Shown here: in pieces, positions 1,208-49,893 of the stretch
How positions within the stretch are numbered: the stretch's first letter is position 1
Layout: every line of letters begins with the position of its first letter
Assembly: GCF_016907695.1 (NCBI RefSeq)
Contig: NZ_JAFBCK010000001.1
Coordinates: 2,535,001 to 2,599,000, forward strand
DNA length: 64,000 bases
Source of the DNA: Actinokineospora baliensis
Lineage (GTDB): Bacteria; Actinomycetota; Actinomycetes; Mycobacteriales; Pseudonocardiaceae
Direction of reading: 5' to 3'
Translations under genes and position numbers: made by a program
Notes under the pieces: model-generated
Database searches by the model: none
What the model saw: only the letters and a program-made list of their open reading frames with translations
Told to the model about the DNA's origin: nothing

Positions 1208-1256
1208 TTTTCCGGCTCGCCTGCGGCATTGCGCTGGGCCCGTGGGGTGCGGGTGG

Positions 1257-1401
1257 GCTCGATGGGGCGAACCTGTTTTGCGCGGGGCCCCTGCGCCGCC
1301 CGTGGCAGGACCGCAAAGCTGGGGCCGAAAAGCATGGCCCTGTCCGCGCACAACGCTACGGACACCGCCACCCCACACAAAACAGGTCCGCCCCATCGAG
1401 C
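1257..1401 (+). repeat. 145-bp palindromic interspersed element, copy 1
   Basis: The element is bounded by imperfect inverted repeats of about 31 bp (1257-1287 and 1371-1401), each ending in GCTCGATGGGGCG. The core carries a nested hairpin (GGGCC, loop GAAAAGCAT, GGCCC) enclosed by GGAC/GTCC. A second copy of exactly the same length lies at 49749-49893 in the opposite orientation. The core, about 70 bp, is nearly identical between copies, while the terminal arms differ at paired positions so that pairing is kept. It sits between the rRNA terminator and the next gene. It encodes no convincing protein. It is either a non-autonomous mobile palindromic unit or a structured RNA/DNA element; I do not recognise a named family. 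Confidence 0.8.
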
Positions 1402-1514
1402 ATTTGGGGTGGGCGGCTTCCGAGTGTCCAGTGGTTGCTTTGGGTGGGCTGGCTCCTTGGCTGATGGGGTGAAAGTCGGTCGCTGGGGTGGGGCTGGTGG
1501 GCGAGTATGGCCCG

Positions 1515-2372
1515 ATGCGGATCGAGCGATACCAAGACGTCCGGGTGTTCTGGGGTGTGGTGGAGGGGTTCTACGCCACGGATCCCGTGCGGCACACCGT
1601 CCCGTTGACTGTCTTGAGCAGGCTGGTGGCGCTGGACGAGCCACCTGCGGGGATGGTGTTGTTGGCTGTCTTCGACGGGGATGAAGTGGTGGGGGCGACC
1701 TTTCAGTACGGGGCTTGGCCGTTGAGCCTGTCGGGTCTGGGGGTCGGGGTTCAGGGCGCGGTCGTGGAGTTCCTGCTCGAGCACGGGATCGACTTCCGGC
1801 GGGTGCAGGGGCCTCGGGACGTCACCGATTCGTTTGCTGGGGTGTGGAGCGGGGCCGCGGGCGTGGGGGTTGAGCGGGTTCGGTCCGAGCGGTTGTTCCG
1901 GCTGGGGGAGTTGGTCGAGCCGACCGTGGCGGGTGGGGTTCGGTTGGGGGCGGAGGCGGATAGCGAGCTCCTGGGGCGGTGGTGCTCGGAGTTCAGCGAC
2001 GAGGCACTGGACGGGGACGAGGGGCTGCCGGACCCGGTGCAGTTCGCTCGGGACGCGTTGGCCAGCGGTCGGGGGGCGCCGATCTGGGTGGACGGGATTC
2101 CGGTGGCCATGGCGCTGGTGACCAAGCCGGTGCTGGGGATGTCGCGGATCGGGCCGGTGTACACGCCGAAGGACCACCGGGGGCAGGGGTACGGCAGCGC
2201 GGTGACCGCGGCCGCCGCGAAGTGGGCTCGGGAGCGGGGTGCGCGGGAGGTCCTGCTGTTCGCCGACCTGGACAACCCGGTGGCCAACTCGATCTACCAG
2301 CGGATCGGGTTCCGGCCGGTGTTCGAGGCCGTGGAAACGACCTTCACCGGACGGAATACTCTCGGGATGTGA
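1515..2372 (+). CDS. GNAT family N-acetyltransferase
   Basis: The product is 285 aa. The C-terminal half carries the acetyl-CoA motif HRGQGYGSAV (about residues 222-231) and the closing NPVANSIYQRIGFRPV strand-helix typical of GNAT enzymes. The N-terminal half looks like a degenerate GNAT fold, as in the duplicated FR47-like subgroup. The substrate cannot be told. ATG 1515 is preferred because homologous proteins begin MRIERY-like; a GTG at 1488 is possible. The stop codon overlaps the GTG start of the next gene (GTGA), so the two are translationally coupled. Confidence 0.88.
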   Translation: MRIERYQDVRVFWGVVEGFYATDPVRHTVPLTVLSRLVALDEPPAGMVLLAVFDGDEVVGATFQYGAWPLSLSGLGVGVQGAVVEFLLEHGIDFRRVQGPRDVTDSFAGVWSGAAGVGVERVRSERLFRLGELVEPTVAGGVRLGAEADSELLGRWCSEFSDEALDGDEGLPDPVQFARDALASGRGAPIWVDGIPVAMALVTKPVLGMSRIGPVYTPKDHRGQGYGSAVTAAAAKWARERGAREVLLFADLDNPVANSIYQRIGFRPVFEAVETTFTGRNTLGM

Positions 2373-19922: not shown

Positions 19923-20032
19923 GGGACAAGGGTGCCGGGTTCGGCCGAACGGCGGATCGAGTTGTCCACAGGTGCAGAGTCACACCCGCCCGGTCCTCCC
20001 GCGTTGTCGGTGTCTCCCCTTACGGTTGTGCC

Positions 20033-26881: not shown

Positions 26882-26955
26882 CGCGGGGTGGAGCAGCTCG
26901 GTAGCTCGCTGGGCTCATAACCCAGAGGTCGCAGGTTCAAATCCTGTCCCCGCTA
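26882..26955 (+). tRNA. initiator tRNA-fMet (CAT), copy 1
   Basis: A 74-nt cloverleaf with anticodon CAT in loop CTCATAA. Initiator hallmarks are present: position 1 C does not pair with position 72 U (5' CGCGGGG against 3' CCCCGCT), and the anticodon stem carries three consecutive G-C pairs (CTGGG/CCCAG). The CCA end is not encoded. Confidence 0.95.
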
Positions 26956-26958
26956 CTA

Positions 26959-27101: not shown

Positions 27102-27110
27102 CCTACTTTG

Positions 27111-27184
27111 TAGCGGGGACAGGATTTGAACCTGCGACCTCTGGGTTATGAGCCCAGCGAGCTACCGAGCTGCTCCACCCCGCG
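27111..27184 (-). tRNA. initiator tRNA-fMet (CAT), copy 2
   Basis: Sequence identical to copy 1 over the whole gene, on the opposite strand, with the same C1/U72 mismatch and G-C-rich anticodon stem. The two genes face each other across 155 bp holding one terminator for each. Confidence 0.95.
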
Positions 27185-48157: not shown

Positions 48158-48282
48158 GTACCAATCACGCTAGGTTTCCCGTGGCGTGCTTCGCATACGC
48201 TACATCACGGGGTGGTGGGGGGTGAAATCGGGGGGTGGGTTGGGGCTTCCGGCGGGTGGGGTGGGGGTGTTAGACCGTGGGG

Positions 48283-49566
48283 ATGGGTGTTGGTGAGGTG
48301 GTTGAGGTCGGGGCTCGGCGGGAGCTGCAGGTCGGGCGGTTGCGCGGGGTGGTGGACCGGCTGCTCGCGGCGGGGGGTGTGCAGGGGCGGCGGCTGCGGG
48401 ACTGCGGGGTGACCTCGGGGGCTGAGGTGGACCTGGGGTCTTTGCGGCGGTTGCCGACGATCGGTAAGCGGGATCTGTGGGATCACTACCCGTACGGGTT
48501 GCGGGCGGTGGACGCTGATGACGTTGTGTGTGTGCACGGGTCGTCGGGGACTGGGGGGCGGCCGACGTTGGTGCCGTACACGGCGCACGACTTGGACGTG
48601 TGGGGCGAGGTGGTGGCGCGGGCGTTGGTGGGGGCCGGGGCGACCCAGCGGAGCGTGGTGCACAACGCCTACGGGTACGGGTTGTTCACGGGCGGGCTGG
48701 GGATCCACCACGGTGCGGTGCGGTTGGGCGCCACGGTCGTGCCGATGTCCGGGGGGATGACGGAGCGGCAGGTGCGGTTGATCCAGGACCTGCGGCCCGA
48801 TGTGCTGACCTGCACGCCGTCGTACGCCATCCACCTGGGGGAGGCGATGCGGGGGGCGCCGAACAGCCTGCGGGTCGGGTTGCACGGGGCCGAGCCGTGG
48901 ACCGACGAGATGCGGGGGCAGATCGAGGGGCTGCTGGGCATCCGCGCGCTGGACATCTACGGGTTGTCCGAGATCATCGGGCCGGGGGTGGCCTGCGAGT
49001 CGCTCGATTCCGAGGGGCTGCTCAACATCGCGGAGGACCACTTCTACCCGGAGTGCGTCGACGCGGAGGGGGACCCGGTGCCGGACGGGACGCCGGGGGA
49101 GTTGGTGTTCACGACGTTGACCAAGACCGGGATGCCGCTGCTGCGCTACCGCACGGGGGACGTGGCGACGCTCGCGCCGGAGACGGACACCGGCTGGCGG
49201 CGGATGTCGAAGCTGCTCGGCCGCACCGACGACATGCTGGTGATCCGCGGGGTGAACGTCTTCCCGACCGAGGTGGAGGCCGTGGTCCTCGCCGACCCCC
49301 GGGTCAGCCCGCACTACCTGGTCGTCGAAGACCGCCGCGTCGCGGCCCGCGCCGAACTCCGGGTCGCCGTAGAACCCAAAGCCGACGTCGACCCGGCCCC
49401 ACTGGCCACCACCCTCGGCGCCGCCCTCCGAGAACGCCTCGGCGTCGGCTGTGACGTGCGGGTCTTCACCCCCGGCAGCCTCCCCCGCACCGACACCGGC
49501 AAAGCCAAACGCCTAGTGCGCTGGACAGACGGCGAGTTCCCCCTACCCAGCCTGACCTGGGACTAG
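48283..49566 (+). CDS. PaaK-like AMP-forming aryl-acid CoA ligase
   Basis: The product is 427 aa, normal for phenylacetate-CoA ligases. Adenylation motifs are the phosphate loop VHGSSGTGGRPTLVPYT, DIYGLSEIIGPGVACE, LLRYRTGDVA and LGRTDDMLVIRGVNVFPTEVE, with the catalytic lysine in TGKAKRLVR. It activates an aryl carboxylate (phenylacetate or a relative such as anthranilate) with ATP and CoA. No paa ring-oxidation genes are adjacent, so the pathway is unknown. ATG 48283 or GTG 48277 starts it. It is divergent from tRNA-Ala. Confidence 0.9.
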   Translation: MGVGEVVEVGARRELQVGRLRGVVDRLLAAGGVQGRRLRDCGVTSGAEVDLGSLRRLPTIGKRDLWDHYPYGLRAVDADDVVCVHGSSGTGGRPTLVPYTAHDLDVWGEVVARALVGAGATQRSVVHNAYGYGLFTGGLGIHHGAVRLGATVVPMSGGMTERQVRLIQDLRPDVLTCTPSYAIHLGEAMRGAPNSLRVGLHGAEPWTDEMRGQIEGLLGIRALDIYGLSEIIGPGVACESLDSEGLLNIAEDHFYPECVDAEGDPVPDGTPGELVFTTLTKTGMPLLRYRTGDVATLAPETDTGWRRMSKLLGRTDDMLVIRGVNVFPTEVEAVVLADPRVSPHYLVVEDRRVAARAELRVAVEPKADVDPAPLATTLGAALRERLGVGCDVRVFTPGSLPRTDTGKAKRLVRWTDGEFPLPSLTWD

Positions 49567-49748: not shown

Positions 49749-49893
49749 GCTCGATGCGGTGAACTTGTTTCGCGTGGGGGAGCGGCACCCGTAGCGTTCT
49801 GCGCGGACAGGGCCATGCTTTTCGGCCCCAGCTTTGCGGTCCTGCAACGGGTGGCGCAGGGGTCCCGCGCGAAACAAGTTCACCGCATCGAGC
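49749..49893 (-). repeat. 145-bp palindromic interspersed element, copy 2
   Basis: This is the reverse-complement counterpart of the element at 1257-1401 and has the same length. Terminal inverted repeats read GCTCGATGCGGTGAACTTG and its complement. The core is nearly unchanged from copy 1, whereas the arms carry base-pair swaps that keep pairing. It lies between the convergent PaaK-like and DsbA genes, 65 bp beyond the DsbA stop. Frames through it are not genes. Confidence 0.8.

Follow-up and report, generated by a model that had tools for sequence, protein, structure and literature searches.

A dispersed family of 145-bp hairpin elements with covarying arms in Actinokineospora

Two 145-bp palindromes in the window, by which we mean the whole 64,000-nucleotide stretch of Actinokineospora baliensis DNA analysed here (G000:C1:2535001-2599000), belong to a large family of structured repeats that we consider, with a probability of roughly 0.55, to be non-autonomous mobile elements that need a folded single strand for their spread, like REPIN, ERIC, and bcr1. 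The family occupies at least 172 distinct places (union of all match sets) in the organism's own genome (G000, a single contig of 7.68 Mb). An earlier note on the window had offered a structured RNA or a palindromic transposable unit as alternatives; we favor a combination of the two, namely a mobile unit with a selected single-strand fold, and we infer that the structure serves propagation.

Anatomy and distribution of the element

Copy 1 lies at positions 1257-1401 and copy 2 at 49749-49893, and the element strand, as we define it, is the minus strand of the window at copy 1 and the plus strand at copy 2. Both copies are 145 bp long (86.9% identity), as the earlier note described, and the paired arm differences that it listed at bases 9, 12, 17, and 23 are all present, the partner bases having changed too; at arm base 14, copy 1 has A.C and copy 2 has A-T. 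Read along the element strand, a basal helix (P1) is followed by an asymmetric internal loop carrying AGGGG on its 3' side, a second helix (P2), and an apical domain. In copy 1 (minus strand), the 31-nt 5' strand of P1 (1371-1401) and the 11-nt 5' strand of P2 (1358-1368) precede the apical domain (1304-1357), which comprises a hairpin strand, a proximal strand, a U-run, and a distal strand able to pair with the same 5' strand; the 3' strand of P2 (1293-1303), the unpaired AGGGG between P2 and P1 (1288-1292), and the 31-nt 3' strand of P1 (1257-1287) complete the element. The corresponding parts of copy 2 (plus strand) are the 5' strands of P1 (49749-49779) and P2 (49782-49792), the apical domain (49793-49846), the 3' strand of P2 (49847-49857), the unpaired AGGGG (49858-49862), and the 3' strand of P1 (49863-49893). 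The downstream flank of copy 1 (1213-1256, minus strand) contains a small REP-like hairpin, AATGCCGCAGGCGAG, and its upstream flank (1402-1434, minus strand) a repeated CCACTGGACACTCGG module. Copy 1 follows a terminator-like hairpin and a 5S rRNA gene and precedes ORF 1488-2372 (+), and copy 2 is flanked by ORFs 48277-49566 (+) and 50798-49959 (-), which converge on it with their 3' ends. Elsewhere in the window, two tRNA-Met(cat) genes with equal Rfam scores (26882-26956 and 27110-27184) lie in opposite orientation about 150 bp apart.

The genome-wide search proposed in the earlier note shows, with these 172 or more places, that the pair in the window is not a two-copy coincidence. A blastn search with copy 1 gave at least 164 matches in A. 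baliensis, many of them to single arms (best 40 of 227 candidates scored; copy 2 not among the matches listed), and a covariance model, R1, built on an alignment (A1) of 61 distinct A. baliensis copies that remained when identical copies among 69 were merged, gave at least 150 (150 of 150 candidates scored). Among 149 matches in 850 kb of this genome, largely fetched around known matches, 147 are full length and 2 partial, and all 10 copies in one contiguous 440-kb block are full. Eight of 10 matches in 400 kb of Actinokineospora diospyrosa are full length, one being interrupted by a contig end, as against just one of 4 in 400 kb of another genome of the genus, G005. The core measures 138-151 nt in the inspected Actinokineospora copies and about 116-157 nt in other genera.

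Searching a species-level genome collection with a two-armed pattern returned 96 stretches, all from Actinokineospora, the positive species including A. iranica, A. diospyrosa, A. terrae, A. pegani, and sp. NBRC 105648. Model R1 matches 15 of 61 genomes, that of A. baliensis included, and one of these (G056) lies outside Pseudonocardiaceae; the latter match (L063:1501-1651, 151 bp), which is an almost perfect palindrome around a CATGCTTTTCGG loop but lacks AGGGG|CCCC, was set aside as unrelated or very distant. A cross-species model, R2, was derived from an alignment (A3) of 27 hand-chosen representatives, several of them from one genome. With R2, 33 of 200 Pseudonocardiaceae genomes in 10 of 46 genera are positive (E up to 0.001), as are 8 of 249 genomes in a sample of the order (E up to 1e-4), all 8 being Pseudonocardiaceae in a sample whose share outside the family is not stated. 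Six further Actinokineospora genomes all match R2 at E up to 0.01, G012 weakly. Since this wider model finds 17, 1 (weak, E 0.003), and 131 matches in G010, G012, and G014, respectively, the zero counts obtained there with R1 reflect its limited sensitivity. At 22 loci from other genera, exact AGGGG precedes the closing C-run in 10, and a loose junction pattern, for which there is no chance control, fits all 22. By eye, L337 and L343 in other genera show AGAGG with a P1 end of GGAG/CUCC, and AGGGG with GGGG/CCCC, the loop before the closing strand seeming to co-change with the top of P1.

No plasmid-borne or phage-borne copy was found in 72,556 plasmid and 50,697 phage records, and a viral contig collection gave no match to the two-armed pattern. 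No Rfam family reaches its gathering score over either window copy, and at E up to 0.5 ten loci gave 4 matches, all under gathering (three miRNA models and one cobalamin). We found no description of the family in the open-licence literature, outside which most subscription journals lie.

Base pairing and strand bias of the fold

Selection for base pairing, the central claim of the earlier note, is strongly supported at the level of the family. Across the outer 23 pairs of P1 in 27 cross-species copies, 99.5% of 619 cells are paired, both sides have changed in 19 of the 23 pairs, and none of 500 shuffles reaches any of five covariation measures, relatedness being able to inflate this result. 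When one partner is slid by 1-3 columns, pairing falls to 33-44%, a comparison in which the structure has an advantage over the slid versions because it was derived from the same sequences. Only two copies in existence, or arms free of covariation, were the outcomes that the note had named as fatal to its claim; both were looked for and neither was found.

Within A. baliensis, where 34 columns are polymorphic among 147 copies, partner columns of P1 are linked (normalized mutual information of 0.91 for 16-137, 0.87 for 11-142, and 0.72 for 19-134) and neighboring columns are much less so (0.54 for 11-16, 0.19 for 16-19, and 0.07 for 19-24). The linked partners lie about 115-130 nt apart, and their linkage in the face of less tightly linked neighbors indicates that copies recombine, yet partners stay together. 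High values are also seen for non-partner columns (0.74 for 142-145 and 0.62 for 11-113) because of a subfamily. P2 changes on both sides between lineages; within A. baliensis its partners (0.46 for 39-112, 0.50 for 40-111, 0.74 for 41-110, and 0.20 for 42-109) are no more linked than its neighbors (0.33 for 39-40, 0.55 for 40-41, and 0.65 for 41-42).

The two strands do not fold equally well. Copy 1 with 2 flanking bases per side (149 nt) folds at -103.9 kcal/mol on the minus strand (z -8.1; none of 200 shuffles equal) compared to -85.7 kcal/mol on the plus strand, and copy 2 gives -104.2 kcal/mol on the element strand and -92.1 kcal/mol on the opposite one. For the 61 distinct A. baliensis copies, RNAalifold yields -92.7 kcal/mol on the element strand, where 214 cells are G.U and 5 are A.C, versus -59.4 kcal/mol on the other. 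The sets from other species comprise 110 best-strand rows out of 221, leaving out opposite-strand duplicates, overlapping-locus duplicates, two rows from G034, and one weak match (L118). In these sets, the strand bias is weaker than in A. baliensis: the RNAalifold energies for the two strands are -93.2/-78.1 for A. diospyrosa (30 copies; G.U 132, A.C 7), -110.6/-99.5 for A. terrae (3 copies; 16 and 1), -86.4/-82.9 for NBRC 105648 (10 copies; 14 and 2), and -83.9/-79.8 for A. iranica (47 copies; 29 and 10).

Parsing succeeded for all 27 representatives, among which the architecture is well conserved. In 24 of them P1 measures 30-31 nt (29-32 overall), P2 is 9-16 bp, and the 3' unpaired run reads AGGGG in 24, CGGGG in 2, and GGGGG in 1; AGGGG is present in all 147 A. 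baliensis copies. The apical 5' strand can form a mean of 6.2 bp with the strand before the U-run, the partner-swap mean being 5.4 and the maximum 6.04 (300 swaps), and a mean of 6.6 bp with the strand after the U-run (swap mean 5.1, maximum 5.63; 27 sequences in each case). These two pairings usually draw on overlapping bases. The comparisons suggest that they compete within the apical domain, but can do no more than suggest it because the separator is misplaced in a few rows (e.g. L138, L060, L174, and L147).

Genomic placement and turnover between species

Genes were called with a home-made codon-usage caller (637 genes), and 86 element sites were defined, a sample in that the sites were reached through element matches. 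At the 79 sites with both neighbors called, 7 of the 86 lying at stretch edges and being omitted, the neighbors are convergent in 46 cases, tandem in 32, and divergent in 1, as against 18% convergent and 22% divergent among background intergenic bases (binomial p of about 2e-15 for the convergent excess and about 1.5e-7 for the divergent deficit). Overlaps between copies and called genes never exceed 40 bp. Clusters of 2-5 copies, often about 240 bp apart, are present at 37 of the 86 sites, and two of the three rRNA operons of A. baliensis have a copy directly downstream. The two halves of the genome show no clear bias in orientation (41 minus and 34 plus; 32 minus and 40 plus). At 11 loci in other genera, inspection of the translations by eye revealed no recurring neighbor that might encode a partner protein, L344 being without a called gene; the two Y1 loci were viewed together with these 11.

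Comparison of flanks in 10,565 distant copy pairs shows that upstream homology extends for less than 10 nt in 4,448 pairs and for at least 30 nt in 5,184, and that the downstream figures are 4,855 pairs with less than 10 nt in common and 3,835 with at least 40 nt. Because many copy pairs lose flank homology within 10 nt, the palindrome alone may be the mobile unit; a larger unit was considered and rejected on this ground, although repeated flanks do exist and some of them go with the core in about half of the copy pairs. The CCACTGGACACTCGG module accompanies 59 of 147 A. baliensis copies at a distance of at most 70 nt, and the small REP-like hairpin (AATGCCG[CA]AGGCGAG, with an A/G variant at the first base) lies at most 70 nt downstream of 71 of the 147. 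All 7 exact matches in the 440 kb at 2.40-2.84 Mb of this genome to the REP-like hairpin at window positions 1213-1234 are intergenic. The 145-bp core runs in the reverse direction with respect to the adjoining modules at genome positions 2261891, 3102317-3102999, and 3224957-3225584, an arrangement that recombination between the two arms could have produced by flipping the core.

Several palindromes are held in islands of about 0.3-1.1 kb together with other repeats (A. baliensis 2699707, 2716025, and 2764934; A. diospyrosa G015:C5 130237 and 164111), and these palindrome-bearing islands are absent from the orthologous place in the sister species. A DnaA-box-like motif, TT[AG]TCCACA, also occurs in repeated modules of some intergenic islands and at window positions 19962 and 23613; the 440 kb at 2.40-2.84 Mb contain 22 occurrences, 19 of them outside called genes; a rough hand estimate puts the chance expectation at about 1.

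Turnover was followed by a synteny comparison of A. baliensis with A. diospyrosa (88% identity) and G005 (83%). On our reading of the alignments, none of five non-rRNA A. baliensis sites syntenic with A. diospyrosa is occupied there, and none of five syntenic A. diospyrosa sites is occupied in A. baliensis; a 26-nt relic is present in G005 at one of the latter five. In G005, G009, G010, and G014, the intergenic space orthologous to that of copy 2 is short and contains no element. The A. diospyrosa site 164111 and a full G005 copy at 177272, in opposite orientation, map to nearly the same point of the A. baliensis genome, and shared and repeated occupation cannot be told apart there. Turnover is not universal: three species carry a whole element or relics of one directly behind the rRNA operon, the A. 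diospyrosa element being interrupted by a contig end and G005 having truncated relics at two operons. Empty orthologous sites exist, but their boundaries are blurred at 83-88% identity, the closer aligned relative being only 88% identical. No transposition event was resolved, nor were target-site duplications or clean insertion ends at five inspected sites or at the copy 2 site. Near 187797 of A. diospyrosa G015:C5, a copy borders a segment of about 6 kb whose orientation is reversed in comparison with A. baliensis.

Level of selection, alternative explanations, and known systems

Private substitutions, defined as those seen in at most 2 copies at a paired position, were compared to a neutral expectation with an assumed transition bias. 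Pairing is kept by 12 of 24 such substitutions in A. baliensis (neutral expectation 8.0, p 0.09), by 6 of 22 in A. iranica (7.7), and by 3 of 11 in A. diospyrosa (3.7). For the same three species, rare double changes that pair number 2, 0, and 7, and rare substitutions amount to 0.34, 0.25, and 0.28 per paired column and to 0.23, 0.28, and 0.37 per unpaired column. Shared variants respect pairing and private ones hardly do, which is most simply explained if structure is screened during the multiplication of elements. Since the loss of pairing through private substitutions is close to the neutral expectation, the propagating lineage rather than the resident copies appears to be under selection, the A. 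baliensis figure leaving room for weak selection on the latter. Under the mobile-element reading, the propagation machinery would recognize a folded single strand, as RNA or ssDNA; lineages that keep pairing would multiply, resident copies would then decay nearly neutrally, and insertions would survive mainly at gene 3' ends.

The best-surviving alternative, which we nevertheless regard as rather unlikely, is a structured RNA with a cellular job, either a cis element in 3' UTRs or a redundant trans-acting RNA of which the whole set is selected and homogenized by recombination. One strand folds better in all 5 species sets, albeit only slightly so for A. iranica and NBRC 105648, copies are located 3' of genes, the G-rich unpaired run at the P1/P2 junction is found in other genera too, and the competing apical helices exceed their swap maxima, all of which would suit such an RNA. 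A function at each site, however, is at odds with the near-neutral private mutations; sites are mostly not common to different species, and at tandem sites the copies show no clear preference of orientation (8 on the same strand as the genes, 13 opposite, and 11 mixed). A redundant set with a collective function would also look neutral, which leaves this version of the alternative some likelihood.

An ordinary MITE moved by a DDE transposase, the arms of which match only as terminal inverted repeats or by arm-to-arm copying, appears distinctly improbable, in spite of 31-bp terminal inverted repeats, high copy number, and lineage-specific variants. The wobble pairs bear on this point. The outer 23 pairs of the 147 A. 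baliensis copies contain 105 G.U and 10 A.C cells, but cells are not events, and G.U and A.C occur in equal numbers of columns (8 and 8), as this explanation would have it; the wobbles common to several copies, in contrast, are one-sided, with G.U shared by at least 3 copies in 4 columns and A.C in none. In the same outer pairs, the G.U/A.C counts are 2/5 in A. iranica, 1/2 in A. diospyrosa, and 4/0 in NBRC 105648. The internal helix P2 also changes on both sides between lineages, contrary to what terminal repeats alone would give. Arm-to-arm copying, the other mechanism put forward in the earlier note, is disfavored in its pure form by the one-sided wobbles (214 G.U versus 5 A.C), an argument that is modest at the level of events. 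Little likelihood attaches to a BIME-like chromosome element acting at the DNA level, with sites for gyrase or nucleoid proteins or as an absorber of transcription between convergent genes, since double-strand recognition needs neither partner-linked arm changes over about 115-130 nt nor a strand-biased fold and the arm sequences vary between species, despite the many sites between convergent genes and the mosaic neighborhood of other small repeats.

If the family is mobile, its mobilizer in A. baliensis is probably neither of the RAYT kind nor a reverse transcriptase. Neither PF01797 (Y1 transposase) nor PF00078 (reverse transcriptase) has a match in this genome, and among 16 genomes of the genus they are found in 2 (G006 and G014) and 3, respectively; the element, if moving in A. 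baliensis now, uses something else. Membership of the RAYT-mobilized REP/REPIN class was rejected on the absence of a Y1 transposase and of a GTAG/CGTC foot tag, and a reverse-transcribed element (derived from a retron or group II intron) on the absence of a PF00078 match. In the broad sense of a bacterial MITE, ERIC-like, the family does qualify as a small, intergenic, dispersed palindrome. A bolder proposal, which we advance tentatively and at clearly less than even odds, is that it represents a hitherto undescribed class of elements that propagate themselves by means of a structured single strand, possibly RNA, spread over at least 10 genera and dependent on neither RAYT nor a recognizable reverse transcriptase, in which the G-rich loop would be a likely protein dock and the apical domain a strand-exchanging switch.

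Integron attC sites are imperfect palindromes recognized as folded single strands, with unpaired bases setting strand choice; unlike these, clustered copies of the present element have no cassette genes between them (gaps of about 70-220 bp). The bcr1 repeat has an RNA fold. At the foot of our hairpin, by eye, the sequence is GCTCGAT...ATCGAGC or a variant rather than the GTAG/CGTC tag of REPs, and GTAG is found in the internal loop of a subset of copies. According to the portions of the REP literature consulted, REPINs are inverted REP pairs with compensatory hairpin changes (PMC3116915), and REPs contain G-T pairs, lie for the most part between convergent and unidirectional genes, and include a CGTC class apparently without a dedicated transposase (PMC3733652); those same portions name no actinobacterial GTAG REPs (PMC3116915, PMC3733652). 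As far as these accounts go, dispersed palindromes, a long single-strand hairpin, compensatory changes, convergent or unidirectional placement, and clustering are shared with the REPIN/REP-RAYT system (PMC3116915, PMC3733652), from which a length of about 145 bp with a 31-bp basal helix, in place of two inverted short REPs, sets our element apart. ERIC (IRU, RU-1) is described, in the part of the source available, as an enterobacterial, non-autonomous, 127-bp intergenic repeat with a stable stem-loop transcript and a TIR given as 7 bp with a duplication (PMC2229807). Compared by description, our element is likewise an intergenic and, on our reading, non-autonomous repeat, but its P1 is mostly 30-31 bp and no duplication was resolved. 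The corresponding account of bcr1, from the Bacillus cereus group and hence another phylum, is of a short dispersed repeat with mobile features, present in 11 to 130 copies per genome, the mobility of which is tied to TTTAT motifs (PMC6542083); short dispersed repeats with mobile features are thus common to both.

This work adds a large structured repeat family, present in 10 of 46 sampled Pseudonocardiaceae genera and without an Rfam match. Because its fold is selected even though single copies look near neutral, a structure that serves a function where it sits can be told apart from one that serves spreading, which can rarely be tested for bacterial palindromic repeats. The occupation of at least 172 places in A. 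baliensis without a detected RAYT or reverse transcriptase makes the question of the mobilizer directly testable, and the mobilizing enzyme, if found, may reveal a new single-strand or RNA-based route of transposition.
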